Under the pieces are notes generated by a model. The model was not told the origin of the DNA. It was given only the letters and a program-made list of their open reading frames with translations, and made no database searches. A stretch of DNA of 40,463 nucleotides from IMG/VR virus record IMGVR_UViG_3300031972_003005, positions 1 through 40,463 of that record, one strand, 5' to 3'. Positions 13,388 through 27,277 of this stretch are shown piece after piece. The stretch comes from a virus. Position numbers and translations under genes: made by a program. Within the stretch, counting starts at the first letter, position 1, and each line of letters begins with the position of its first letter.

Positions 13388-14677
13388 ATGACAGAAAAAA
13401 AGAAGATTTTGGTCTTATCTGACCATCCGCTTTCGCCTTCTGGCGTCGGCACACAAACAAAATATATGATTGAAGCTCTATTGGAAACCGGAAGATATAA
13501 ATTTGTATGTCTTGGTGGAGCAATGAAACATAATGATTATAGACCACAAAAAGTAGATCCATATGGAGCTGATTGGGTTATCTATCCTATTGATGGATAT
13601 GGATCAGATGAAATCATTCGCTCTGTTTTACAAAAAGAAAAACCAGATTTACTTTGGTTTATGACAGATCCTAGATTTTATGGCTGGCTGTGGGAAATTG
13701 AAAACGAAGTTAGAACAAATATCCCTATGGTTTATTATCATGTTTGGGATAATTTTCCAGCTCCAGAATTTAACTCATCCTTTTATCGTTCAACAGATAA
13801 GATTGTTACTATTTCAAAAGTCACAGATGAGATTGTAAAAACTGTTGCACCTGATGTTGAAAGACAATATCTTCCACACGCCGTTGACCCAAAATTCTTT
13901 TACAAGTATAAGTCAAAAGAAGATTTACAAAAAGTAAAAGAACTTAGAGATCAAATTACATGTGTTCCAAATACACTTTATGCTAATAAAGATAAAAAAG
14001 TATTTTTCTGGAATAACAGAAATGCTAGAAGAAAGCAAAGCGGAACTTTAGTGTGGTGGTTCCATGAGTTTTTGCAAGATGTCGGACACGACAAAGCATG
14101 CTTGCTAATGCATACCGACCCAAGAGATCCTCATGGTCAAGATCTTCCTCATATTATTGAACATGTTGGTGCCAATCAAGGACAGGTTTTACTTTCGACA
14201 AATAAGGTAGGCGCTGATGAATTGGCAAAGTTATATAATGCTGCTGATTTTACAATCAATATTTCTGATGCAGAAGGTTTTGGATTAGCTACTCTTGAAT
14301 CTTTATCTTGCGGAACTCCAATTATTGTAAATATGACCGGAGGCTTACAAGAACAAGTCACCGATGGAAAAGAATGGTTTGGATGGGGTATTGAGCCAGC
14401 TAGTAAATCTGTGATTGGCTCATTACAGGTTCCATATATTTATGAAGATCGTATCTCTCAAGTTGATTTTCACAATACTCTAAAAAAGGCTCTTAACGTA
14501 AGTGATAAAGCTTATAAAAAGATGTCTATTAAAGGTAGAGAACATATTGCAAACAATTATAGTTTTGAAACATATAAATCAAAATGGGTAGAGTTAATTG
14601 ATGATGTTATTGAGAGACATGGTTCATGGGATACAAGAAATCTTTATACTAGATGGCATTTTATGGAGGTAGCATGA
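13388..14677 (+). CDS. Glycosyltransferase, GT-B fold (GT4-like)
   Basis: A 429-residue enzyme that would transfer a sugar from a nucleotide donor. The N-terminal domain begins ILVLSDHPLSPSGVGTQTKYMIEALL with the glycine-rich acceptor loop. The C-terminal donor domain carries the GT4 signature: NAADFTINISDAEGFGLATLESLSCGTPIIVNMTGG, with the EGFGL-(x)n-E pattern of the nucleotide-phosphate site. No membrane segment. It opens the sugar gene cluster and overlaps the next gene by four bases. Donor and acceptor are unknown. Confidence 0.92.
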   Translation: MTEKKKILVLSDHPLSPSGVGTQTKYMIEALLETGRYKFVCLGGAMKHNDYRPQKVDPYGADWVIYPIDGYGSDEIIRSVLQKEKPDLLWFMTDPRFYGWLWEIENEVRTNIPMVYYHVWDNFPAPEFNSSFYRSTDKIVTISKVTDEIVKTVAPDVERQYLPHAVDPKFFYKYKSKEDLQKVKELRDQITCVPNTLYANKDKKVFFWNNRNARRKQSGTLVWWFHEFLQDVGHDKACLLMHTDPRDPHGQDLPHIIEHVGANQGQVLLSTNKVGADELAKLYNAADFTINISDAEGFGLATLESLSCGTPIIVNMTGGLQEQVTDGKEWFGWGIEPASKSVIGSLQVPYIYEDRISQVDFHNTLKKALNVSDKAYKKMSIKGREHIANNYSFETYKSKWVELIDDVIERHGSWDTRNLYTRWHFMEVA

Positions 14678-15936
14678 AAAAAAGTATTTTATTGAAAGGT
14701 CCTCTTCTGACGCGTTCTGGCTATGGAGAACAAACAAGGTTTGCTCTTAGGTCATTGCAAAGTCGTCAAGATATTTTTGATATTTATATTCAACCAATCA
14801 ACTGGGGTAAAACCTCTTGGATGATTGAACATTCTGAAGAAAGAGCTTGGATCGATCAAACTATTGAAAAAACAATCGGATACATCCAATCTGGAGGTAA
14901 ATTTGATTATTCATTGCAGGTCACCATTCCTTTAGAATGGGAAAATCTTGCTACTTATAATATCGGTTATACCGCAGGTATTGAAACGACTAAGGTGGCT
15001 CACTCATGGATTAGTAAGGGCAACTTTATGGACAAAATTATCGTTGTTTCTTCTCATTCTAAGCAAACATACGAAGACACTGTATATGACGCCATCAATC
15101 AAGCTAACAATGAACAGTTTTCCTTAAAGTTAGAAACTGAGATTACACATGTAAATTATCCAGTAAAGAATTTTTCCAACTCTGAGAGTGATGTAAAATT
15201 AGATCTTGATTATGACTTTAATTTCTTATCGGTAGCACAGTTTGGTCCAAGAAAAAATCTTCACAACACAATTAAATGGTTTGTAGAAGAATTTTATAAT
15301 GATGAAGTAGGATTAATTGTAAAATCTAATATTGCTAAAAATTGTTTAATGGATCGTTTGAGACTTAAGTCAGATCTTGAGAGAATGCTGCAGCCATATA
15401 GTGATAGAAAATGTAAGTTTTATCTTATTCATGGAGATATGACTGATGCTGAAATTCATTCTCTTTATACACATCCTAAAGTGAGCGCTTTTCTAGCTCT
15501 TCCGCATGGCGAAGGTTTTGGTTTGCCAATTTTTGAAGCAGCCTACAGTGGAATTCCTGTTGTTGCGACTGGATGGTCTGGTCAACTGGACTTTTTAGTG
15601 GATGAATCCGGGATGGAACAATTCTACAATGTTGCTTTTGATATGCAAGCGGTTCAAGACAATGTTGTATGGGAAGATGTAATTATTAAAGAATCTATGT
15701 GGGCATTTCCACGAGAGCAATCTGCAAAGCAAAAGATGAGACTTTGCTACAATCAATATTCAAGTGGATATGAAGGACAAAAGGTTGTTAATGCATCTGA
15801 ATATGCTGAAGTTCTCAAGGAGAGGTTCAATGAAGATAAAATGTATGCTTCTTTTATTGATGCAATGGGTATTGATGAGGAAGAATTCAATGTCGAGTCC
15901 TGGATTAATAGTTTAGATATTGAAGAGATAGAATGA
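14674..15936 (+). CDS. Glycosyltransferase, GT-B fold (GT4-like)
   Basis: A 420-residue second GT-B enzyme. KGPLLTRSGYGEQTRFALRSL at the N-terminus contains the glycine loop. The donor domain reads VAQFGPRKNLHNTIKWF, then LALPHGEGFGLPIFEAAYSGIPVVATGWSGQLDFL, an unmistakable GT4 donor site. GGAGG lies seven bases before ATG 14674 and the start overlaps the upstream stop (ATGA), so this start is preferred over ATG 14653. The acidic tail (DEEEFNVESWINSLDIEEIE) is long. It overlaps the next gene by four bases. Acceptor unknown. Confidence 0.93.
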   Translation: MKKSILLKGPLLTRSGYGEQTRFALRSLQSRQDIFDIYIQPINWGKTSWMIEHSEERAWIDQTIEKTIGYIQSGGKFDYSLQVTIPLEWENLATYNIGYTAGIETTKVAHSWISKGNFMDKIIVVSSHSKQTYEDTVYDAINQANNEQFSLKLETEITHVNYPVKNFSNSESDVKLDLDYDFNFLSVAQFGPRKNLHNTIKWFVEEFYNDEVGLIVKSNIAKNCLMDRLRLKSDLERMLQPYSDRKCKFYLIHGDMTDAEIHSLYTHPKVSAFLALPHGEGFGLPIFEAAYSGIPVVATGWSGQLDFLVDESGMEQFYNVAFDMQAVQDNVVWEDVIIKESMWAFPREQSAKQKMRLCYNQYSSGYEGQKVVNASEYAEVLKERFNEDKMYASFIDAMGIDEEEFNVESWINSLDIEEIE

Positions 15937-16769
15937 AAATAATATTCATCGCTGACTTTTTTGTTGAACAAATATTAGGAGGCGGCGAACTTAATAATGA
16001 AGAATTAATTTTGATGCTTCGTGCCGATGGGTACGAAGTATTCAAATATAATAGCCATCAAGTTACTGCATCTCTCATAGAAAAGCATAAAGAAGATAGT
16101 TTTATAATTGCTAATTTTTGTAATATAAGACCAGAATTAATATCTTTATTTTATAATAAAAATTATGTCATTTATGAACATGACCACAAATATTTAAAGA
16201 CAAGAAATCCTGGCGTTTTCAAGGATTTTAAAGCGCCACAAAATCAAATAATTAATTTAGATTTTTACAAAAATGCAAAAGCAGTCTTATGTCAGTCAAG
16301 CTTCCATGCAGAAATTGTAAATCTTAATACAAACTTGCAAAATATAAAAAATTTAAGCGGTAATATATGGTCTATAGATTCTCTTGACTTTATGAATGAC
16401 ATATGTGATATAGAAAAAACCGATACATGTGCGGTTATGAAATCAAACATAGAGCATAAAAACACTGCTGATGCAATCAGGCTATGCAATGCTAAGGGAC
16501 TATCTTATAATCTTGTATCAAGTGCAAATTATAAAGAATTTTTAACCCTTCTCGGAACAAATAAAAAGTTTGTATTTCTTCCTAAAACGCCAGAAACCCT
16601 TTCGCGTGTTGTGGTAGAGGCAAGAATGATGGATATGAGTGTTATCGTTAATAAAATGATCGGAGCAACTCGTGAGCCTTGGTATTCACTTAAAGGTAAA
16701 GAATTGATAAAAAAAGTTACACAAATGCGTGAAGATATAAAAAATATTGTTATTGAGAGTTTGTCATGA
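15933..16769 (+). CDS. Probable GT-B-like glycosyltransferase, divergent
   Basis: A 278-residue protein, assigned by fold pattern and neighbours. The start MKIIFIADFFVEQILGGGELNNEELI has the strand-loop-helix of a GT-B N-domain with a Gly-Gly-Gly loop. The second half (FVFLPKTPETLSRVVVEARMMDMSVIVNKMIGA) looks like a shortened donor domain with P-E-x-x-x-R-V-x-x-E-A. It is about 130 residues shorter than typical GT4 enzymes. It overlaps both neighbours by four bases, so it is in the operon. It could be inactive or partner another transferase. Confidence 0.7.
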   Translation: MKIIFIADFFVEQILGGGELNNEELILMLRADGYEVFKYNSHQVTASLIEKHKEDSFIIANFCNIRPELISLFYNKNYVIYEHDHKYLKTRNPGVFKDFKAPQNQIINLDFYKNAKAVLCQSSFHAEIVNLNTNLQNIKNLSGNIWSIDSLDFMNDICDIEKTDTCAVMKSNIEHKNTADAIRLCNAKGLSYNLVSSANYKEFLTLLGTNKKFVFLPKTPETLSRVVVEARMMDMSVIVNKMIGATREPWYSLKGKELIKKVTQMREDIKNIVIESLS

Positions 16770-17674
16770 AAGTTTATTGTGTTAAATATGATGCTTTTGC
16801 GGGCAAATGGATATACAATGGTTATAGAAGTGCTTGGAAAGAATTAGGATATGATTTGGCTGATTCTGATTTTCCAAATAACAAAGATCTTAGTGAAGAA
16901 TTTATCATTATGACTACTGATTCTGCCATTAATAACAATGAACAGATCGACATCATTAGTAAAAGTAATAAAACTTTCTTGTTTGTACAACCAAACTCTT
17001 TTCCTGAGCCTTGGGGTCGTCATCCAAATTTTGTTTCACATACAAGTGATCAAATTATAAGTTCATTAAATAAGTTAGATAATGTTTATTATTGGACTTT
17101 TGCTGATGTAAATGATACGTTTTATCATAAATGGAATAAGGAAGTTCATACAATACCGCTAGCCTTTGATTCAATTAATTATGTACCTTTCAAAGAAGAA
17201 AAATACAATAAGTTTGATATTTCATTTGTTGGTGGTTGGGCAAATAATGGTTTTGATGAAAAAAGAAAAATAATAATCAATACATTTTCTAAGTTTATGA
17301 ATACGGATATGAAATGCGGATTTTTTGTAAATAAAAATCTTAGTCATGAACAAGAGTGCCAACTTTTAGCAAATAGCAAAATTACTTTAAATATTCACGA
17401 TGCATATCAACGCATATTAGGCTTAGATACCAATGAGAGAACGTTTAAATCGCTTGGCTTAAACGGTCTTTTAGTTTCAGATAAAATTAAACAGTTAAAT
17501 GACTTGTTTCCCGATGTTCCCACTTCGTTGGAGCCTGATGAGCTTGTTTTGCATACAAAGAAATTATTATCCTTGACAGATAAAGAAGCAGAGGTTATAA
17601 AAGAAGAAAATAAACATGATATTTTAACAAACCACTGCTACGTCAATCGTATACAAAAACTAATGAATTTATGA
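16766..17674 (+). CDS. CgeB-like glycosyltransferase
   Basis: A 302-residue protein resembling the CgeB/glycosyltransferase-1 family. Recognisable parts are VHTIPLAFDSINYVPF, the strand FDISFVGGWANNGFDEKRK, the helix LLANSKITLNIHD and the donor-site region NERTFKSLGLNGLLVSD. The same order appears in the gene at 19505, so this is one of two CgeB-like copies. No signal peptide or membrane helix. It overlaps both neighbours by four bases. Sugar specificity unknown. Confidence 0.8.
   Translation: MKVYCVKYDAFAGKWIYNGYRSAWKELGYDLADSDFPNNKDLSEEFIIMTTDSAINNNEQIDIISKSNKTFLFVQPNSFPEPWGRHPNFVSHTSDQIISSLNKLDNVYYWTFADVNDTFYHKWNKEVHTIPLAFDSINYVPFKEEKYNKFDISFVGGWANNGFDEKRKIIINTFSKFMNTDMKCGFFVNKNLSHEQECQLLANSKITLNIHDAYQRILGLDTNERTFKSLGLNGLLVSDKIKQLNDLFPDVPTSLEPDELVLHTKKLLSLTDKEAEVIKEENKHDILTNHCYVNRIQKLMNL
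17573..17601 (+). promoter_or_regulatory. Possible internal promoter in the sugar operon
   Basis: TTGACA (17573-17578), a 17-base spacer and TATAAA (17596-17601) inside the end of the CgeB-like gene. It is placed 70 bases before the GT2 gene. The context GTTATA at the -10 also occurs at the 7782 and 12588 promoters. Could be a chance match. Confidence 0.42.
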
Positions 17675-18411
17675 GTCCAAAAGTATCAATAATAATCCCA
17701 TGCTACAATGCAGAAAAGTGGATAGAAGAGTGCGTAATGTCCGCATTGTCTCAAACATATAAAAATGTTGAAGTTATTGTAGTTGATAATGAAAGTTCTG
17801 ATAGAAGTGTTGAAATTGTTCAAAATTTACAAGAACAAAACCAAGAACTAATTTTTTCAACTGCAGAGAATGTCTATCCAAATTGCTGGGATGAAGCTCG
17901 TGAAGAAGGCTTTAGATTGATGACAGGCGATTATGTTCTTGTCATGGGTTCTGATGATTTTTTAGATGAAAAATTTATTGAAAACTGCATGAAGTTTTTT
18001 ATGCAAGCACCGGATAAAATCAAAGCACTGCAAAGTCCTGCGAAAGGCGTTACGGTAAAAAATGGAATAAAAATGTTTACTGGCGAACTTAAGCATTTGT
18101 ATCGTTCAAAAGAAGAATTTAAAAATCTTTGTTTACAAAAGTGCCCCGTCAACACACCAACAGTAATTTATAATACAGAGCTTTACAAAAAAGGATTACT
18201 AAAAGCTGAGCCTCAAAAATATGGAGGTGCAGCAGATTATGATTTATATTGCAAACTCATAGATGAAGGTGTTTTTATTTATCCATCTCCTGTGTGGTTA
18301 GGTTTTTATTATCGATGGCACGAAGAGCAAGCTACTTGGAAAGTGCATAAACAAGGCGTAAACTATGATATAATGATCCAAGAATATTGGAGAGAAAAAT
18401 GGAAGATTTGA
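17671..18411 (+). CDS. Glycosyltransferase family 2 (GT-A fold)
   Basis: A 246-residue inverting-type transferase. The N-terminus KVSIIIPCYNAEKWIEECVMSALSQTYKNVEVIVVDNESSD is the classic GT2 nucleotide-binding half. The metal-binding DxD-like motif is in GDYVLVMGSDDFLDE. The C-terminal half (AADYDLYCKLIDEG) has the usual acceptor-side acidic pair and ends in FYYRWHEEQATW. No membrane helices, unlike polysaccharide-exporting GT2 proteins. It overlaps the upstream gene by four bases and the transketolase gene by 13. Confidence 0.95.
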   Translation: MSPKVSIIIPCYNAEKWIEECVMSALSQTYKNVEVIVVDNESSDRSVEIVQNLQEQNQELIFSTAENVYPNCWDEAREEGFRLMTGDYVLVMGSDDFLDEKFIENCMKFFMQAPDKIKALQSPAKGVTVKNGIKMFTGELKHLYRSKEEFKNLCLQKCPVNTPTVIYNTELYKKGLLKAEPQKYGGAADYDLYCKLIDEGVFIYPSPVWLGFYYRWHEEQATWKVHKQGVNYDIMIQEYWREKWKI

Positions 18412-19031
18412 AATTAGTAGAACGAATATTGGATATTGCCTATAAGCACAAGCTATCACACCTTGGAAGCTATTTTTCAAGCGTAGGTATAATTGATGAT
18501 ATTTTTTCTTCAAAAGCAGAAGACGACATTTTTATTTTATCTGCTGGTCATTGTGCTCTTGCACTATATGTTGTGTTAGAAAAATATCTAAATCATGATG
18601 CCGAACAATTGTTTGTAAAACACGGTGGTCATCCTCATAGATGTGAAGAAGATGATTTGTATTGCTCAACAGGTAGCCTAGGTATGGGTATTACTGCTGC
18701 TGTCGGTCGCGCCGTAGCTAATCCAGATAGAGTTGTTCACTGTCTTATTAGCGATGGAGAATGCGCAGAGGGCAGTATTTGGGAGGCATTGAAATTTATT
18801 TATGAGAATAATGTGAAGAACATAAGAATTTATGTTAATGTAAATGGCTATGCTGCTTACGATACCGTAGATACAAAATATCTTGTCGATAGATTAAAAA
18901 CATTTTTACCAGATATCAATATCGTTTATACTGATGTTAGTAGATTTTCGTTTTTACGAGGATTGAACGCGCATTATCACATCATGCATCAAAAAGATTA
19001 TGATTTAGCCAAAAAGGAGTTATTAGGATGA
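18399..19031 (+). CDS. Transketolase N-terminal (TPP/PP) half
   Basis: A 210-residue thiamine-diphosphate-binding subunit of a split transketolase-like enzyme. It has SHLGS (H21), SAGH (48-51), HGGHPH (75-80), TGSLGMGI (91-98) and the TPP-metal motif SDGECAEGSIWEA (118-130), followed by N147/N149. Split transketolases use a second gene for the pyrimidine half, which is the next gene here, overlapping by four bases. Within a sugar cluster it would transfer a two-carbon unit to or from a sugar. GGAGAG before ATG 18399 decides the start over ATG 18387. Confidence 0.9.
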   Translation: MEDLKLVERILDIAYKHKLSHLGSYFSSVGIIDDIFSSKAEDDIFILSAGHCALALYVVLEKYLNHDAEQLFVKHGGHPHRCEEDDLYCSTGSLGMGITAAVGRAVANPDRVVHCLISDGECAEGSIWEALKFIYENNVKNIRIYVNVNGYAAYDTVDTKYLVDRLKTFLPDINIVYTDVSRFSFLRGLNAHYHIMHQKDYDLAKKELLG

Positions 19032-19504
19032 GAAAGGCATTTAGTGAAAGATTGCACTTGGAAATGGCTAAAAATAAAGATATTGTCGTTTTGACTGGTG
19101 ATCTTGGATATGGACTTTGGGATAGAATAAGAATTGATTATCAAGATAGATTTTTTAACGTTGGCTCATCTGAACAACTTATGATGGGCATGGCTTCCGG
19201 AATGGCAATGGAAGGTAAAATACCGGTTGTTTATTCAATTACTCCGTTTTTGCTTTATAGACCATTTGAATTTATTAGAAATTATGTAGATCATGAAAAG
19301 TTGCCTGTTAAACTTATAGGCGGCGGTCGTGATCGAGATTATGGATATTTGGGATTTTCTCATTGGGCTGAGGAAGATAGAAATATTATTGGTAACTTTA
19401 AAAATATCAAAATGCTCCACCCTACTAATGAGCTGCAGATGGAGGAGCAATTTGCAATTATTCTTGATAAGACAATTCCTGTATATATGAATTTAAAAAG
19501 ATAG
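19028..19504 (+). CDS. Transketolase pyrimidine-binding half, truncated
   Basis: A 158-residue partner of the upstream gene. RKAFSERLHLEMAKNKDIVVLTGDLG and RFFNVGSSEQLMMGMASGMAMEGKIPVVYS match the pyrimidine-binding domain; E49 in GSSEQ would activate TPP. LIGGGRDRDYGYLGFSHWAEED contains the conserved glycine/His loop. It ends after the HPTNELQM region. It therefore lacks the C-terminal transketolase domain of about 130-150 residues that split C-halves normally carry. No frameshift is visible; the stop is followed directly by the next ATG, so the short form looks intended. Confidence 0.9.
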   Translation: MRKAFSERLHLEMAKNKDIVVLTGDLGYGLWDRIRIDYQDRFFNVGSSEQLMMGMASGMAMEGKIPVVYSITPFLLYRPFEFIRNYVDHEKLPVKLIGGGRDRDYGYLGFSHWAEEDRNIIGNFKNIKMLHPTNELQMEEQFAIILDKTIPVYMNLKR

Positions 19505-20413
19505 ATGAAAATTCTCTTAACTATTAATAAAACATATCGTGGAATGCTCGATAGTAGCTATTGGTATGTCTATGAGCCACTGATGGAGCTTGGACATGAA
19601 ATACATTTTTATGATACAGTTGATGGGGATCCCTCTGGAAAATCATATAAACAAATTATTGAAGAGTTTAAGCCAGATTTAATTTTTTGTATGATGACTG
19701 GTGACCCACACATTACGCCAAACGAACCATGGCGAGAATTAGATGAAGAAACTAAATCAGGTCGAACCAAAACCTTTAACTGGTTTTGTGATGATACCTG
19801 GAGATTTGATAATTTTTCAAAGATAGCGTGTAAATCGTTTACTGTATGTTCTACACCAGAAAGAGGACACTTAGAAAAATATCATCAAATTGGATATAAT
19901 AATATTATAGTTGGCAACTGGCATGCAAATTCAAAATATTATAAACCTAAGCCATTTAAAAATAGAGAATTTGATATTTCTTTTGTTGGCGCGCCCACAA
20001 ACAGTAGAAAATCGTTTTTTGAAAGTACAGAGGCTCCTATAAAATATTTTTTTAAATTATCACAAGAGGAATTGTTTGCTGCTCACACAAAAACAAAAAT
20101 AGGCGTAAACCTTTCTGTAAATGATAATGACCCTAACAAATCTACACAAATGAAGCAAAGAATTTTTGAAGTACCTGCAGGTGGCGGATTATTACTAACA
20201 CAATATCACCCAGGTATTGAAGAGTATTATGAGATTGATAAAGAAATAATTACATTCAACTCAGTACAGGAATACAATAAGAAAGTAAAATTCCTACTAA
20301 AAAATCATAAAATCATTGAGTTTATTTCTAATAATGGTCATAAGAGATTTATGCGAGAACATGATTCAAAAGTTAGATTAGCTAATATCTTAGAACAGGT
20401 AATCAAAATATGA
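19505..20413 (+). CDS. CgeB-like glycosyltransferase, second copy
   Basis: A 302-residue protein of the same family as the gene at 16766. The parts are MKILLTINKTYRGMLDSSYW, an acceptor-domain region with FNWFCDDTWRF, NWHANSKYYKP, the strand FDISFVGAPTNSRKSF and the donor-site region QMKQRIFEVPAGGGLLLTQYHPGIEEYY. This last motif is the typical CgeB signature. The stop of the transketolase half abuts this start. It overlaps the next gene by four bases. Donor and acceptor unknown. Confidence 0.88.
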   Translation: MKILLTINKTYRGMLDSSYWYVYEPLMELGHEIHFYDTVDGDPSGKSYKQIIEEFKPDLIFCMMTGDPHITPNEPWRELDEETKSGRTKTFNWFCDDTWRFDNFSKIACKSFTVCSTPERGHLEKYHQIGYNNIIVGNWHANSKYYKPKPFKNREFDISFVGAPTNSRKSFFESTEAPIKYFFKLSQEELFAAHTKTKIGVNLSVNDNDPNKSTQMKQRIFEVPAGGGLLLTQYHPGIEEYYEIDKEIITFNSVQEYNKKVKFLLKNHKIIEFISNNGHKRFMREHDSKVRLANILEQVIKI

Positions 20414-21249
20414 ATATTTTAATCACAGGTTGCAATGGTTTTCTTGCAAAAGAATTAATATCATATTTTTCTCCAAACCATAATGTGATTAAAACCGATC
20501 GTAAGACTTTAGATCCTACAGATTATGAAAACGTCAAATGGTTTTTTGATATATATGCAATAGATGTGGTTATACATACTGCTATCAAAGGTGGCAAGAG
20601 AAACGATAAAGAAGACTTACAGAACTTTTTTACGAACATTCGCATGTTTGAAAATTTATCTCTGTTTTCTGACAAATATAAAATGATGTTTAATTTTGGA
20701 TCTGGTGCGGAATTCGACAGAACCTTGGATATAAACAGTGCTCAAGAAACACTTATATATGAAAGAATGCCATCTGACTATTATGGATTAGCAAAAAATT
20801 TAATATCCAAAAAAATCATTTCTATGAATTCTAATATTCATAACTTAAGATTGTTTGGCTGTTTTGGTCAATTTGAAGAGCCGCAAAGGCTTATAAGAGC
20901 GACTTATAAAAATTTTTTAAGTAAGAATAGTGCAACTATTTTTCAAGACAAGGAAATGGATTATTTCTATGCTCAAGATGTCGGTAAAGTTATTGATTAT
21001 TATATTGAAAATTACAACAATGATTTACCAAAAGATTTAAATTTATGTTATAAACAAAAGCACAAGTTAAGCGATATTGCTTTTACATTAAAAAATTTGA
21101 CAAACACCGAACAAGATGTTATTATAGAAAACAATAACCCATCTTATTCTTATTCTGGCAGTGGACAAAGATTGAATGAATTGGGTGTAGAATTAATTGG
21201 TTTACAAGAAGGAATAAATGAATGTCTGAAAAATTGGAACAAATCCTAA
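20410..21249 (+). CDS. NAD-dependent epimerase/dehydratase (SDR), divergent
   Basis: A 279-residue Rossmann enzyme acting on a nucleotide sugar. It has GCNGFLA near the N-terminus for NAD(P), VIHTAIKGG in place of the usual NxAA strand, and YYGLAK as the catalytic YxxxK. The C-terminal substrate half is short. It does not clearly match RmlB, GalE or GFS; a reductase or epimerase acting after the 4,6-dehydratase and 3-dehydratase steps would fit the position. It overlaps the RfbH-like gene by 28 bases. Confidence 0.85.
   Translation: MNILITGCNGFLAKELISYFSPNHNVIKTDRKTLDPTDYENVKWFFDIYAIDVVIHTAIKGGKRNDKEDLQNFFTNIRMFENLSLFSDKYKMMFNFGSGAEFDRTLDINSAQETLIYERMPSDYYGLAKNLISKKIISMNSNIHNLRLFGCFGQFEEPQRLIRATYKNFLSKNSATIFQDKEMDYFYAQDVGKVIDYYIENYNNDLPKDLNLCYKQKHKLSDIAFTLKNLTNTEQDVIIENNNPSYSYSGSGQRLNELGVELIGLQEGINECLKNWNKS
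21097..21125 (+). promoter_or_regulatory. Possible internal promoter before the RfbH-like gene
   Basis: TTGACA (21097-21102), a 17-base spacer and TATTAT (21120-21125), inside the SDR gene about 95 bases before the 3-dehydratase start. Could be chance in AT-rich DNA. Confidence 0.35.
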
Positions 21250-22562
21250 ATTTAGTAACTGAATATGTTTCTGAAAAGCAAGAAAATGAAAAGTGGACCG
21301 CTGGGGAAGATTGGGTTTCTTATTCTGGTCCTGTATTTGATGACCAAGAATATCTTGCAGCAGTTAGGCAAATTTTAGATGGTTGGATGATTTTTGGCAA
21401 AAATGCTAGAGAATTTGAGAATAAATTTCCTGCAAAGTTAGGAAAACTATATGGTTCGCTCACAAACTCTGGTAGTTCTGCAAACTTACTAATGGTAGCT
21501 GCAGCAAAATCTAGACGCTTTAAAAAGCAATTAAAAGATGGTGATAAGATTATCACACCGGTTGTTTGTTTTCCAACAACAATCAATCCAATTATTCAAA
21601 ACAATTTAGTTCCAGTATTTGTAGATGTAGAACTTCCAAGTGTAAATTTAGATTTAGATAAAGTAGAAGAATTGCTTGAAAACGATCCTGGTATAAAAGG
21701 TATTATGTTCGCGCATGTTTTAGGTAATCCGCCTGATATGGATCGACTTATGGCGCTTGTTGAAAAATATAATCTTGTGTTTTTTGAAGATGCATGCGAT
21801 GCATTAGGTTCATATTACGATGGAAGAAAACTTGGTTCATATGGTGATATGTCAACTTGCTCCTTTTTTCCAGCTCATCATATGACGACCGGCGAAGGCG
21901 GTTTTATTGCAACAAGTAGTCAGAGAACCCGCACAATTCTTGCTAGTATTCGTGACTGGGGACGTGCGTGTTATTGTAACACTATGAAGCCAGGAAATGT
22001 AACAAGCGCAACAGCTTGCGGTAATAGATTTAAAAACTGGCTTCCTGGATTAAAAGATGCGGTATATGATCATAGATATGTATTTGATGAGATTGGGTAT
22101 AACTTAAAGCCATTGGATTTGCAAGCTGCTATGGGTCTTAAACAATTAGAAAAACTACCAATGCTGGATGAAGCTCGTAGAAAAAACTGGGCTATAATGA
22201 AGTCCATATTTGAGCCTTATAGCCAATATTTCCACATGCCAGAAGCCACTGAAAAAGCAGATCCTTGCTGGTTTGCATTTTTGCTTACCATCAAAGAAGA
22301 TGCTCCTTTCTCTCGTTCTGATATTGTAGAACATTTAGAATCTGCAAAGATCCAAACCCGGTCTTATTTTTCAGGTAATATCCTTGCTCATCCTGGTTAT
22401 GTTCATATGGCAGATGAATATGGTGATATGAACTTAACATTTCCAAATGCCCAATTAGTTACAACTAATTCATTTTTTCTTGGAACATATGCTGGCTTGA
22501 CTGAAGATAAATTGAACTATATTAAAAGCATTGTAGACGACTTTTTTAAAGGCTTAGGATGA
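21222..22562 (+). CDS. rfbH: RfbH/E1-type sugar 3-dehydratase (PMP and [2Fe-2S])
   Basis: Related to CDP-6-deoxy-4-hexulose 3-dehydratase (E1), which removes the C-3 hydroxyl on the way to 3,6-dideoxyhexoses. The fold is that of DegT aminotransferases, but FFPAHHMTTGEGG has His (H220) where aminotransferases have the PLP-binding Lys, the E1/ColD hallmark. C192 (FFEDACDALG) is 57 residues before C250; C252 and C266 follow (RDWGRACYC...CGNRF). E1 enzymes use C-x57-C-x1-C-x7-C for [2Fe-2S]; here the last gap is 13. ColD lacks the cluster, so E1-type chemistry is favoured. No E3 reductase is seen in the window. AAGGA precedes the start. Confidence 0.92.
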   Translation: MSEKLEQILNLVTEYVSEKQENEKWTAGEDWVSYSGPVFDDQEYLAAVRQILDGWMIFGKNAREFENKFPAKLGKLYGSLTNSGSSANLLMVAAAKSRRFKKQLKDGDKIITPVVCFPTTINPIIQNNLVPVFVDVELPSVNLDLDKVEELLENDPGIKGIMFAHVLGNPPDMDRLMALVEKYNLVFFEDACDALGSYYDGRKLGSYGDMSTCSFFPAHHMTTGEGGFIATSSQRTRTILASIRDWGRACYCNTMKPGNVTSATACGNRFKNWLPGLKDAVYDHRYVFDEIGYNLKPLDLQAAMGLKQLEKLPMLDEARRKNWAIMKSIFEPYSQYFHMPEATEKADPCWFAFLLTIKEDAPFSRSDIVEHLESAKIQTRSYFSGNILAHPGYVHMADEYGDMNLTFPNAQLVTTNSFFLGTYAGLTEDKLNYIKSIVDDFFKGLG

Positions 22563-23509
22563 AATTAGTATATGTTACCGGATGTTTAGGCTTCATTGGC
22601 TCTTATGTTACGAGAAAGTGCTTAGAACGAGGCTGGAAAGTGTATGGTGTTGATAAATGCACATATGTTGCCAACACATCTCTTTTAAAAGAGTTTTCAA
22701 AATATCCTAACTTTACATTTATTAAAGAAGATATCAAGGATCTGAAGCATCTTTATGATTGTGATTATGTGATTAACACTGCGGCTGAATCACATGTTGG
22801 TAACAGTATTATTGATAGTAAAGATTTTATTAGTAGTAATATCATGGGAGTGCAAAATCTTTTAGATTTAATTCGCAATAAACCCGAGAATTGTAATCGT
22901 AGACCAATCCTGTTTCATTTTAGCACAGACGAAGTTTATGGTGATATCACTGAGGGAGAACATACGGAAACAGATCTGCTACACCCCAGTAATCCATATT
23001 CTGCCGCCAAAGCTGCAGCAGATATGTTGATATTAGCTTGGGCGAGAACTTATAAAGTAGAATATGTTATTCTCCGACCTACAAACAATTACGGTATTGG
23101 ACAATATCCAGAAAAACTAATCCCATTATCTGTTAAAAATCTCATGAGAGGCAAAAATATCAGACTTCACGACGGTGGTACACCAATTAGAAATTGGTTA
23201 CATGCAGATGATACTGCTGAAGCTGTATTATCAATAATTGATGCTGGCGTAATTAATGAAGTTTACAATGTAGCTGGAGGTTTTGAGCAGCCTAATATCG
23301 ACACAGTAAGAAAAGTTATGAATTGTTTTTTCAATGAGGAATACCAATTGGAAGATCATGTTGATTTTTCTTATTCTCGCGTTGGTCAAGATGTTCGCTA
23401 TGCATTGAATGATGATAAATTGAGAAGTTTAGGCTGGGAACCAAAAAGAGTATTTGATCAAGAAATTGATTTAATTGTTCAATATTATAAAGATAATTTT
23501 ATTTGGTAA
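22559..23509 (+). CDS. RmlB-like nucleotide-sugar 4,6-dehydratase
   Basis: A 316-residue SDR expected to make an NDP-4-keto-6-deoxyhexose. It has GCLGFIGS (8-15) for NAD, NTAAESHVGNS, the catalytic STDEVYGD with the Asp-Glu pair characteristic of dTDP-glucose 4,6-dehydratases, and YSAAKAAADML as YxxxK. RPTNNYGIGQYPEKLIPL and GTPIRNWLHADD complete the family pattern. CDP-glucose dehydratases differ at the TDE site, so a dTDP- or UDP-linked substrate is more likely. The four-base overlap with the 3-dehydratase gene suggests that the two act in sequence. Confidence 0.92.
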   Translation: MKLVYVTGCLGFIGSYVTRKCLERGWKVYGVDKCTYVANTSLLKEFSKYPNFTFIKEDIKDLKHLYDCDYVINTAAESHVGNSIIDSKDFISSNIMGVQNLLDLIRNKPENCNRRPILFHFSTDEVYGDITEGEHTETDLLHPSNPYSAAKAAADMLILAWARTYKVEYVILRPTNNYGIGQYPEKLIPLSVKNLMRGKNIRLHDGGTPIRNWLHADDTAEAVLSIIDAGVINEVYNVAGGFEQPNIDTVRKVMNCFFNEEYQLEDHVDFSYSRVGQDVRYALNDDKLRSLGWEPKRVFDQEIDLIVQYYKDNFIW

Positions 23510-23563: not shown

Positions 23564-25315
23564 ATGAAAATTTTACTTTGCTGCACTTCTATTCAAGATG
23601 AACATAGGAGTGAAGATAATCACGATAGTCACTACCCACTAGGATTAGCGTATCTGCAGTCTTATATCGAGCATCATCGCCCTGAAAAGGATGAGTTTAT
23701 TAATCTTTATCTTAATAATGTTCCATATGAACAATGCTACAGAGAAATTAAAGAAAATCTAAAGAATTTTCAACCAGATGTTTTCGGTGTTTCTATTATG
23801 ACGCACAGCAGAGTTACTGCATATAGAATGATTGAATATGTGCATGAAAACTATCCAGATACTAAAATTGTAGTCGGAGGTATGCATCCGAGCGTTATGT
23901 GGAAACAAATGGTAGAAAAGTATCCATACATTGTTGCAGTTCGTGGAGAAGGCGAAGTAACTTTCAATGAGCTTATTGAAGTTTATTCTGGCGAAAAGGA
24001 TATGGAACTTGATGAAGTAGCTGGTATTGCTTTCCATGATGGTGAAAAAGTAGTTGCTACGACTGGTAGACCATTGGTTGCTAACATCGATGATTTGCCG
24101 TTTCCAAAGCATGAATTATTTGTTAAAGATGGAAAAACAATTGGTAACCTCTTAACAAGTCGTGGATGCCCCTATAAGTGCAACTTCTGCGTTTTAGATC
24201 ACACTTCATTGAGAAAAGTTCGCTTCAGATCCGGCGAGAATATCGCAGATGAGGTTGAAAAACTTATCACAGAATTCCCAACTATTAATACTATTTGGAT
24301 TCACGATGATGCATTTATGATTAATAAAGCAAGAACATTGGAATTTTGTGATGCGATTATTAGAAGAGGCATCAAAACTCAATTTGTTGCTAGTGCAAGG
24401 TTTAGACCTATTTCTCCCGAAGTTGTGCAGAAAATGGAACAAGCCGGCTTCGTTCATGTATTGTTTGGGCTGGAGAGTGGAGCCGACAATGTTATAAGCG
24501 GCATGAGAAAAGGCATTACAAAAGAACATGTTCGTTACGGGTCTAGTCTTTTTGCTCAATCGAAAATGAAAGCAACAGCGTTTTTGATTGCAGGGTTACC
24601 TGGCGAAACAGACGAAACAATTCAAGAAACTATTGATTTTGTACAAGAGATTCAAAACATTAATTACCTGTATTATGATGATATGGGAGTTGCTATGATT
24701 TATCCGGGCACAGAAATGTATACTATGGCTAAAGCCACAGGAAAAATTGATGATGATTATTGGCTAACTGATAAGGATGTTCCTTATTTTACAATTGACA
24801 ATGGTGGTGTCCACACGTATGAAAAACTACTAGAAATGAAAGAAACCATTAGACAGTCAGTTGCATTGCAGCATATGTTTACTCCAGAGGGCTTTTTAAA
24901 GCAGAGGAAAGTTATTCCAAGCCTGTTAAAATATTCACAAATCCATAATATGGCGCCAGTCAATAATATTTTAAATACAGCACTTACTCGCTTTGGTTTG
25001 TTGAATGAATTGGTGAAGAAAGTTTTTTCTGGAGATCCTATTGATTCATTTCTTAAGAAAGCTGCAGTCGCATTTGAAAAAGTATTAATCGAAGTTATTA
25101 TGAACCATAATAATATTGATACACCTGAAAAGAAAAAAGCTTTTATTAATCAAGTTGTTGCTCAAACAAAACAAGATGCCATCACATTAGCTGAGCATAA
25201 AGAAAGATGGAATACGGTCAAATATGACGGTGACAAAGATAAGGGCGATATTGATTATAAGAAATCTTTTGTTGAGGAAAAGAAAAAGAGCGACTTTAAC
25301 ATCATAGGTCAATAA
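23564..25315 (+). CDS. Radical SAM protein with B12-binding-like N-domain
   Basis: A 583-residue protein. The N-terminal 145 residues (PLGLAYLQSYIEHH, DVFGVSIMTHSRVTAYRMI, KIVVGGMHPSVMW, VRGEGEVTFNELIEVY) have the cobalamin-binding-domain pattern of this class. The radical SAM core has C202-x3-C206-x2-C209 in TSRGCPYKCNFC for the [4Fe-4S] cluster, and then WIHDDAF, LFGLESGADNVISGMRKG and FLIAGLPGET. The 130-residue C-terminal extension is not recognised. Related enzymes do methylation and other radical chemistry on unactivated carbons; in this operon a sugar is the likely substrate. A 54-base gap precedes it, with AAAAGGA at its end. Confidence 0.9.
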   Translation: MKILLCCTSIQDEHRSEDNHDSHYPLGLAYLQSYIEHHRPEKDEFINLYLNNVPYEQCYREIKENLKNFQPDVFGVSIMTHSRVTAYRMIEYVHENYPDTKIVVGGMHPSVMWKQMVEKYPYIVAVRGEGEVTFNELIEVYSGEKDMELDEVAGIAFHDGEKVVATTGRPLVANIDDLPFPKHELFVKDGKTIGNLLTSRGCPYKCNFCVLDHTSLRKVRFRSGENIADEVEKLITEFPTINTIWIHDDAFMINKARTLEFCDAIIRRGIKTQFVASARFRPISPEVVQKMEQAGFVHVLFGLESGADNVISGMRKGITKEHVRYGSSLFAQSKMKATAFLIAGLPGETDETIQETIDFVQEIQNINYLYYDDMGVAMIYPGTEMYTMAKATGKIDDDYWLTDKDVPYFTIDNGGVHTYEKLLEMKETIRQSVALQHMFTPEGFLKQRKVIPSLLKYSQIHNMAPVNNILNTALTRFGLLNELVKKVFSGDPIDSFLKKAAVAFEKVLIEVIMNHNNIDTPEKKKAFINQVVAQTKQDAITLAEHKERWNTVKYDGDKDKGDIDYKKSFVEEKKKSDFNIIGQ

Positions 25316-25322
25316 AGACAAT

Positions 25323-26315
25323 ATGAAAAAACAACAAATGATGATGTCTAAGGATGATTATGATCCTAAGAGATGTAATGAATTTATAGATAAAGTGTTC
25401 AAAGATTATTTATCATCTGATAATGTCTTGGTCACTGGTGGTTCTGGATTTCTTGGCAAAAGACTACAAATCGAGAAACCAGAATGGGATTATATTTCTT
25501 CTAAAGATTGCGATTTAACGAATAAAGAGCAAGTAAGTGAGCTTTTTAATGATTTAAAGCCTGATGCTATCGTGCATCTTGCAGCAAGAGTTGGTGGAAT
25601 CAAAGACAACATCGAAAATCAAGCAGATTTTTTTTATTTAAATACGATGATGAACACTAATGTTATTCACGAAGCTCACGAAGCTGGAATTGATAGAGTG
25701 CTATCATCTCTTAGTACGTGTGCTTTCCCAGAAAATATTGATATTTTTCCGTTTGATGAGAAGGTTTTTTTTTACGGTCCGCCAACGATAACTAATTTTT
25801 CTTATGGTATGACAAAGCGCATGCTACATGTTTCTAGTATTTCTTATAGAGAACAATATAAAAGAAATTATTCCACCTTTTGTCCGTCTAATATATATGG
25901 ACCGCAAGATCACTTCAATGAAGAGGCATCTCATTTTGTTGCTGCTCTGGTCCACAAGGTAGCAGTCGCTGAAGATGACGATACTATTGAATTATGGGGA
26001 ACTGGTAAACCAATGAGGCAACAACTTTACGTTGATGATTTATGTAAAATAATACCAATACTGTTAGAAAAACACAATTCAGACGTTCCTCTTATTGTTG
26101 CACCTCATGAAAACTTAACGATTAAAGAAATGAGCAATTCTTTGATTAAACAAATTGATAAATGTGTTAAAATAGAATTCAATGGTAATATGGATGGTCA
26201 ATTTAGAAAAGATGGCAACAATTTAGAGCTTATAAACTTAATTGGTGATTTTAAATTTACATCTTTCAAAGACGGAATCAAAAAAACATTTAATTGGTAT
26301 TTGGAGAATAAATGA
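25323..26315 (+). CDS. fcl: GDP-L-fucose synthase-like epimerase/reductase
   Basis: A 330-residue SDR. After about 32 extra N-terminal residues, [11 protein letters not shown] (35-45) binds NADP. Family signatures are [32 protein letters not shown] and [10 protein letters not shown] (catalytic Y161, K165), then [23 protein letters not shown]. The family converts GDP-4-keto-6-deoxymannose to GDP-fucose, and its colitose relative ColC works on the 3-deoxy form. The Cys in the STCAFP loop matches the GFS catalytic cysteine position. It overlaps GMD by four bases, as fcl and gmd often do. Which sugar it makes cannot be decided by sequence. Confidence 0.9.
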
Positions 26316-27277
26316 AAACAGCATTTGTAACAGGTGTTACAGGACAAGATGGCTCTTATTTAGCTGAGTTATTGCTTGATAAAGGCTATAAAGTCGTAGG
26401 ACTAAAAAGAAGAACATCTTTAATCTCAACTAATAGAATTGATCATATTTTTGGTCACCCTAATTTTAAGTTAGAATATTTTAGTTTGCATGACGTTGGG
26501 TGTATTTATCGTTTGTTGATGCAGTATGAGCCTGATGAATTTTATAATTTAGCTGCGCAATCACATGTTAAAGTTTCTTTTGAAGTTCCAGAAGAAACTG
26601 TTGATGCTGTAGCAATGGGTACATTGAGGATTTTAGAAGCTGTAAGAATATTTAATCCTAAAATTAAAGTTTACCAAGCGTCTTCATCTGAAATGTTTGG
26701 AGATAATCCAGAGAATCCTCAGAGCGAAACAACAGCTCTTATGCCGGCTTCACCATATGCATGTGCTAAAGTTTTTTCACACAATCTTATAAGAAATTAT
26801 AGACAAAGCTACGGAATACATGCATCTTCTGGTATCCTATTTAATCACGAATCTCCACGTCGTGGTGAAACCTTCGTAACAAGAAAAATCACATTAGCCG
26901 CAGCAAAAATTAAACTTGGCTTACAAGATAAATTATTTCTAGGAAACTTAGATGCAAAAAGAGATTGGGGATTTGCCGGCGATTATGTAGAGGCTATGTG
27001 GCTTATGTTGCAGCAAGATAATCCAGATGATTATGTCATTGCAACCGGTGAGACGCACACTGTTAAAGAATTTTTGTATGAGGTATTTGAAGCTGCCGAG
27101 TTGGATGTTGATAAATATGTAGAAATTGATCCTCGCTTGTTTAGACCTCATGAGGTTCCATTGCTGCTTGGTGACCCAACAAAAGCAAAGCAAAAATTAG
27201 GCTGGGAGCCCAAAATAACATTTAAAAAGCTTGCAAAAATGATGTACGAAGCTGACTTGCAAGAACTCAAAAAATAA
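26312..27277 (+). CDS. gmd: GDP-mannose 4,6-dehydratase
   Basis: Converts GDP-mannose to GDP-4-keto-6-deoxymannose. It has [21 protein letters not shown] at the N-terminus (the GxxGQDGSYL signature), [17 protein letters not shown], catalytic SSSEMFG (E127), YACAK (Y149, K153), the [20 protein letters not shown] signature and [17 protein letters not shown]. All are diagnostic of GMD. At 321 residues it is a little shorter than the E. coli enzyme (373). It links to the phosphomannomutase at 6.2 kb and the fcl-like gene upstream. It closes the sugar cluster. Confidence 0.96.

Follow-up and report, generated by a model that had tools for sequence, protein, structure and literature searches.

A marine phage gene cassette for a probable unusual branched sugar, with a split transketolase in a slot of exchangeable thiamine enzymes

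The virus record IMGVR_UViG_3300031972_003005 of IMG/VR, analysed here over its whole length of 40,463 bases (the window), is that of a phage, with T4-like baseplate genes, PhoH and thymidine kinase, and carries between 13.4 and 27.3 kb a cassette of glycan genes. Judged by its sequence, this cassette, which marine phages carry, very probably directs the synthesis of an unusual branched sugar. At its centre, on the plus strand, a transketolase divided over two genes, TKN (18399-19031) and TKC (19028-19504), lies four genes ahead of a homologue of RfbH, the E1-type sugar 3-dehydratase (21222-22562), an arrangement that an earlier note on this DNA had proposed and that the open reading frame positions bear out. 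We think it likely that the transketolase pair, an enzyme dependent on thiamine diphosphate (ThDP), would add a ketol unit to the product of RfbH. The case is built on the gene identities, on active sites that are intact in both the ThDP enzyme and RfbH, on the conservation of the slot that the pair occupies in related phages and on its repeated replacement there by YerE-like or E1-like enzymes.

TKN (210 aa from its ATG, or 214 aa if an in-frame TTG at 18387 is used) is the ThDP (PP-domain) chain and TKC (158 aa) the pyrimidine-binding (Pyr) chain of a split transketolase. Pfam finds Transketolase_N in the first (28.9 bits, cut-off 22) and Transket_pyr in the second (64.7 bits, cut-off 27). 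AlphaFold2 models of the two chains (pLDDT 90 and 87) have as top fold matches in Foldseek 6yak and 6yaj respectively, both from the split transketolase of Carboxydothermus hydrogenoformans, and 6yaj is also the closest PDB sequence match of TKC; Pfam, AlphaFold2 and Foldseek thus agree on PP and Pyr chains encoded by adjacent genes. The earlier description of the pair as a split transketolase stands for these two domains and needs amending for the third, since TKC stops after the Pyr domain and the transketolase C-terminal domain is absent. The domains are those of transketolases; YerE-like enzymes are instead characterized by one chain that combines TPP_enzyme_N, M and C, and the family difference from YerE recognized in the earlier note is therefore real. 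Matches of TKN to pentatricopeptide proteins in the PDB were set aside as repeat artefacts, as was the idea that a 202-aa open reading frame between TKN and TKC in one related locus (L003) is an E1 alpha chain: it resembles one by size, not by sequence, and by eye looks like a methyltransferase. A phage genome collection yielded just two weak relatives of the pair, at 31% identity, from Acinetobacter phage.

About 60 relatives were aligned with TktA by MAFFT; the alignment is gapped and unreliable near residues 461-473 and 520, and only well-anchored residues were used. The equivalents of TktA H26, H66, H100, D155 and N185 are kept, the catalytic glutamate (TktA E411) is present in every relative, and the GDG of TktA is replaced by SDG. 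The ThDP, Mg and catalytic residues of the pair hence appear intact and the enzymes look functional. The position of TktA S385, which we take to be one of the substrate-phosphate-binding residues, is a leucine in all relatives aligned.

The second key enzyme passes the cut-off of the NCBIfam RfbH equivalog model (473.9 bits against 423) and aligns with the solved E1 structure 3bcx. Its catalytic H219 corresponds to H220 of E1, in the place of the aminotransferase lysine, and the PAHH motif around it is found in 80 of 80 phage relatives. Residues C192, H219, C250, C252 and C266 are invariant (alignment A1). The four cysteines occupy the places of the [2Fe-2S] ligands of E1, whose pattern is C-X57-C-X1-C-X7-C; in the window protein the final two cysteines are separated by X13 instead of X7. 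From these features the protein is predicted to be a true RfbH/E1-type sugar 3-dehydratase, dependent on pyridoxal phosphate and an Fe-S cluster and with its active site intact, in agreement with the earlier assignment. Just outside the interval 18399-22562 to which the earlier note referred, an RmlB-like nucleotide-sugar 4,6-dehydratase follows (22559-23509). It scores 299.7 bits with TIGR01181, below the cut-off of 365, and only 70.6 bits with the model for CDP-glucose 4,6-dehydratases (cut-off 278), and its nearest solved structures are dTDP-glucose 4,6-dehydratases. The nucleotide is accordingly more likely, though not certainly, dTDP rather than CDP. Between the transketolase pair and RfbH, a short-chain dehydrogenase/reductase (SDR; 20410-21249) is recognized by Pfam Epimerase (72.6 bits, cut-off 20.9). 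Since adjacent genes from 14.65 to 23.5 kb abut or overlap, with overlaps of 4-28 nt in the run from TKN to the RmlB-like gene, they likely form one operon, as had been supposed for the transketolase, RfbH and RmlB-like genes.

The acceptor, carbon position, donor, nucleotide, SDR step, product and glycan target of this operon we infer as follows. Its end product would be a nucleotide-activated branched 3,6-dideoxysugar, destined for a glycan that the phage encodes. The RmlB-like enzyme would convert host NDP-glucose, probably dTDP-glucose, to a 4-keto-6-deoxy sugar. RfbH, with electrons from a host reductase, would deoxygenate this at C-3, yielding the 4-keto-3,6-dideoxy sugar. A host ketose or hydroxypyruvate would next serve the split transketolase as donor of a two-carbon ketol unit, and addition of this unit to the C-4 ketone would leave a tertiary alcohol that bears a hydroxyacetyl branch. 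The ketone of the branch may be reduced by the SDR, and the neighbouring glycosyltransferases would attach the sugar. In paulomycin biosynthesis the ketoreductase Pau7 reduces the acetyl branch after the branching step (PMC4753412), and it is on this model that the SDR is proposed as the branch reductase. No E3 reductase gene is present among the identified open reading frames of the window, and 21 large related records contain no NTP_transferase and a single NAD_binding_1 match; the host must therefore supply both the NDP-glucose and the electrons, and a host reductase could stand in for the absent E3.

The related loci argue for a carboligase role. A scan of IMG/VR with an RfbH profile provided 80 loci, the best of 527, some of them near-copies of each other; for 66 of these, which extend at least 6 kb upstream of RfbH, a ThDP enzyme was sought within 10 kb. 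One is present in 64 of the 66: a split transketolase in 28, a YerE-like enzyme in 27, an E1-like enzyme in 5, both E1-like and YerE-like enzymes in 3 and a transketolase together with a YerE-like enzyme in 1. The usual gene order is GT2 glycosyltransferase, ThDP enzyme, SDR, RfbH, RmlB. The YerE-like enzymes of these sister phages have the full Pfam set of TPP_enzyme_N, M and C, and their profile hits 8rph in the PDB at 552 bits, compared with at most 351 bits for acetolactate synthases; 8rph is deposited as a thiamine pyrophosphate-binding protein and is, we assume, the YerE-like JanthE. The two-chain E1-like type has an alpha chain that matches E1_dh, and Pfam gave no match for its beta chain. 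According to a 2025 review, the ThDP superfamilies with known or proposed ketone acceptors are the YerE-like decarboxylases, alphaKADH2 and the transketolases (PMC12247030), and the fact that the phage slot holds members of exactly these three supports a carboligase acting on a ketone sugar.

The two loci in which no ThDP enzyme was found (L050, L053) encode a protein of 539-542 aa that by eye resembles NodU/TobZ-like carbamoyltransferases. The YerE-like loci have a further peculiarity: a PanB-like (ketopantoate hydroxymethyltransferase) or HpcH/HpaI-like aldolase gene (for example L018:6224-7153 and L029:4110-4916) occurs in 21 of 31 of them versus 0 of 36 other loci. PanB-like and HpcH-like enzymes can build hydroxylated 2-oxo acids. 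Such acids are the donor type preferred by the YerE-like ErwE (PMC12247030), and the additional enzymes may thus make the donor for their YerE-like neighbours.

The linkage of RfbH to ThDP enzymes is not due to chance. In a control set collected through an upstream glycosyltransferase, a ThDP enzyme accompanied 6 of 6 loci with RfbH (two of them truncated at the stretch's end and assigned by eye) versus 6 of 53 without it (p = 2e-5). Six loci devoid of RfbH (L299, L301, L308, L311, L353, L357) carry a divergent E1-like alpha/beta ThDP pair, whose neighbours are a radical SAM protein and an SDR with weak resemblance to RmlB. One could imagine that the product of RfbH and the SDR is a plain 3,6-dideoxyhexose, with the ThDP enzymes no more than metabolic hitch-hikers or remnants in decay. 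Reduction at C-4 by the SDR is conceivable in principle, and the SDR is found beside all three ThDP types without following them: the notion that the SDR type tracks the ThDP type holds in one natural swap pair, whose SDRs are 39% identical versus 98% for RfbH, but was rejected because the labels on the SDR tree are as scattered as shuffled ones. Against this, a ThDP enzyme is missing in just 2 of 66 RfbH loci, its active-site residues are conserved, and it would be odd for hitch-hikers to come from exactly the three superfamilies that use ketones. We regard such a plain sugar as very improbable.

The three ThDP types exchange freely on the RfbH tree, on which they require 24 changes, the same number as shuffled labels. 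Individual events can be seen in pairs of contigs. Locus L124, of the transketolase type, and L062, of the YerE-like type, share 97.0% identity in a 5.2-kb upstream part and 96.4% across RfbH-RmlB; in between, L124 bears TKN-TKC-SDR plus four more genes and L062 bears HpcH-YerE-SDR instead. Similarly, L115 equals L033 save for a clean 1.1-kb insertion of TKN-TKC ahead of the YerE-like gene. Because the pair that would make the acceptor, RfbH-RmlB, stays while the carboligase changes, all three kinds of carboligase presumably act on the same acceptor. The wider proposal is of a modular pathway, in which one conserved RmlB-like/RfbH acceptor pair can be joined by a ThDP carboligase of any of three unrelated kinds, recombination changes the side chain of the glycan, and the trimmed split transketolase serves as a ketol transferase on a ketone sugar; taken as a whole, we consider its chances to be evenly balanced.

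The same exchange bears on the possibility that the transketolase pair produces a ketose or ketose phosphate, for instance a heptulose, for another sugar, its nearness to RfbH reflecting no more than a shared glycan cassette. Distant relatives of the pair adjoin an HldE-like kinase/nucleotidyltransferase in Pelagibacter (L254), and besides several glycosyltransferases there is a second deoxysugar route in the cassette. YerE-like and E1-like enzymes, which occupy the slot as well, are however not known as makers of ketose phosphates, and the presumed phosphate-binding position of TktA S385 is a leucine throughout the alignment. A ketose product therefore seems unlikely to us.

The neighbourhood was also viewed from the transketolase. 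In 80 loci found with TKC, an SDR lies directly downstream in 76, and RmlB is linked to the pair in 71; RfbH is present in 50, and 22 have a different DegT protein. Either RfbH or such a DegT protein occurs in every one of the 44 transketolase loci that extend 9 kb to each side. These other DegT proteins are mostly SFYASHVITAGG proteins (in L135, L139, L143, L152 and L153, among other loci), in which the catalytic histidine is kept and the Fe-S cysteines are absent; the one that was searched is closest to E1. Their reading as aminotransferases was dropped, the motifs examined having the catalytic histidine. These numbers raise the question whether the pair branches a different keto sugar, either the 4-keto-6-deoxy sugar that leaves the RmlB-like enzyme, ahead of any 3-deoxygenation, or the GDP-sugar of Gmd. 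RmlB is linked to the pair at least as tightly as RfbH (71/80 and 50/80, respectively), and relatives of the pair in Patescibacteria stand beside a 4,6-dehydratase-like SDR and a methyltransferase with no adjacent 3-dehydratase. On the other hand, transketolase loci lacking RfbH usually bear a DegT protein with the catalytic histidine, and many transketolase loci have no Gmd, which makes branching of another keto sugar rather improbable.

Several of these observations nonetheless weigh against addition of a ketol unit to the RfbH product: transketolase loci without a canonical RfbH exist; relatives of the pair with 33-58% identity occur in contexts without RfbH; and the Patescibacteria and Pelagibacter neighbourhoods described above belong to this group. 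Another distant pair (L278) lies near an alcohol dehydrogenase and a methyltransferase, such loci coming from Pelagibacter and Anaerolineales. That the more distant split transketolases appear to serve other sugar pathways is the main doubt. In addition, the loss of TktA Asp469 (DGPTH to LGFSH), considered as a signature of ketone acceptors, had to be rejected: the position is a leucine in 23 of 29 sampled Pseudomonadota split transketolases, the aspartate is kept in most Patescibacteria relatives, and its loss is not diagnostic. Finally, the 13 split-gene transketolase candidates in the literature are all from Streptomycetes, with a role that is only proposed and a function 'still pending' (PMC12247030).

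The genomic linkage elsewhere that the earlier note had set as a check is borne out, in dozens of phage contigs and also in bacteria. RfbH was found in 38 of 398 Pseudomonadota genomes, and 20 of the 36 loci read have a ThDP enzyme nearby, 17 of them acetolactate synthase/YerE-like and 3 split transketolases; a rough Poisson estimate from round numbers (110 split transketolases, mean genome size 3.6 Mb) predicts 0.06 for the latter. One of these clusters (L417) encodes a glucose-1-phosphate cytidylyltransferase, a CDP-glucose 4,6-dehydratase, RfbH, a reductase and a split transketolase, a company that supports action of the transketolase on the RfbH product; a split transketolase is likewise found with CDP-glucose 4,6-dehydratase and RfbH in L439. 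RfbH has TKN and TKC as direct neighbours in an Actinomarina genome (L229). The cassette also occurs, in phage order, on contigs assigned to Maricaulis and Thaumarchaeota metagenome-assembled genomes (L216, L217, L218); these are probably phage contigs that were binned into such genomes.

The remainder of the window cassette, all on the plus strand, is rich in glycosyltransferases. Upstream, four such genes extend from 13388 to 17674, three of them confirmed by Pfam: those starting at 13388 and 14653 match Glycos_transf_1 and that at 16766 Glyco_trans_1_2, while a Pfam scan of the gene at 15933 gave no match. A GT2-family enzyme (17671-18411; Glycos_transf_2, 97 bits) forms the conserved left border of the ThDP slot. 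The glycosyltransferase that follows TKC (19505-20413; PF13524, 69.6 bits, cut-off 25) is optional in relatives and does not occur at the corresponding place in L005-L008. The second deoxysugar route consists of an Fcl-like SDR and the GDP-mannose 4,6-dehydratase Gmd (25323-27277), with NCBIfam scores of 177.5 bits for the former, under the cut-off of 500, and 454.9 bits for the latter (cut-off 415). Between RmlB and Fcl lies a gene for a B12-binding radical SAM protein (23564-25315), also present in some relatives (L017, L029); its best NCBIfam match is BchE (169 bits), and it remains under the cut-off of every model matched. A simple hydropathy scan revealed no clear transmembrane segment in any cassette protein, and the cassette hence has no evident flippase or polymerase. 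For this reason, the glycan is less likely to be part of an O-antigen than to be attached within the cell, for instance to DNA or a protein of the virion.

Phages encoding what appears to be branched deoxysugar synthesis bear on the question of phage glycans and on biocatalysts for making chiral tertiary alcohols. No earlier phage report of such enzymes or of such synthesis was found in the literature searched, outside which most subscription journals lie. If the proposal is true, the split transketolase is a ketol transferase with a ketone sugar as acceptor, which for transketolases has so far been no more than a proposed activity, and the dozens of phage examples together with the few bacterial ones would join the 13 Streptomycete candidates, with a named acceptor accessible to preparation. 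The natural contig pairs with near-identical RfbH-RmlB but different carboligases offer a ready-made comparison of the carboligases.

By analogy, the cassette would work like yersiniose-type branching, yet with a carboligase that is neither YerE nor a complete transketolase. In the synthesis of yersiniose A by Yersinia pseudotuberculosis (E1/E3 and YerE), an RfbH/E1 enzyme likewise stands beside a ThDP carboligase and an SDR, and the sister phages share the YerE-like carboligase itself; to this extent the analogy drawn in the earlier note is upheld. It fails where the window has a split transketolase instead, an RmlB-like dehydratase, pointing to dTDP, rather than a CDP-glucose 4,6-dehydratase, a phage as carrier, and neither E3 nor nucleotidyltransferase in the 21 related records, bar the one NAD_binding_1 match. 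Transfer of a hydroxyacetyl unit onto a keto sugar is similarly proposed for the two-chain transketolases of miharamycin and amipurimycin synthesis in Streptomyces (PMC12247030), but these reside in antibiotic clusters, whereas the phage enzymes are shorter and tied to a sugar 3-dehydratase. AviB1/AviB2 and Pau11/Pau12, alphaKADH2 enzymes of avilamycin and paulomycin octose synthesis, are two-chain ThDP enzymes with a proposed C-4 acetyl branch and a later ketoreductase (PMC4753412); their type is represented in the sister-phage slot by the E1-like pair, while the window pair matches transketolase and not E1_dh. Lastly, the split transketolase of Carboxydothermus hydrogenoformans acts on aldehydes (PMC7661550) and retains the transketolase C-terminal domain in its second chain, in contrast to the phage TKC, which ends after the Pyr domain.

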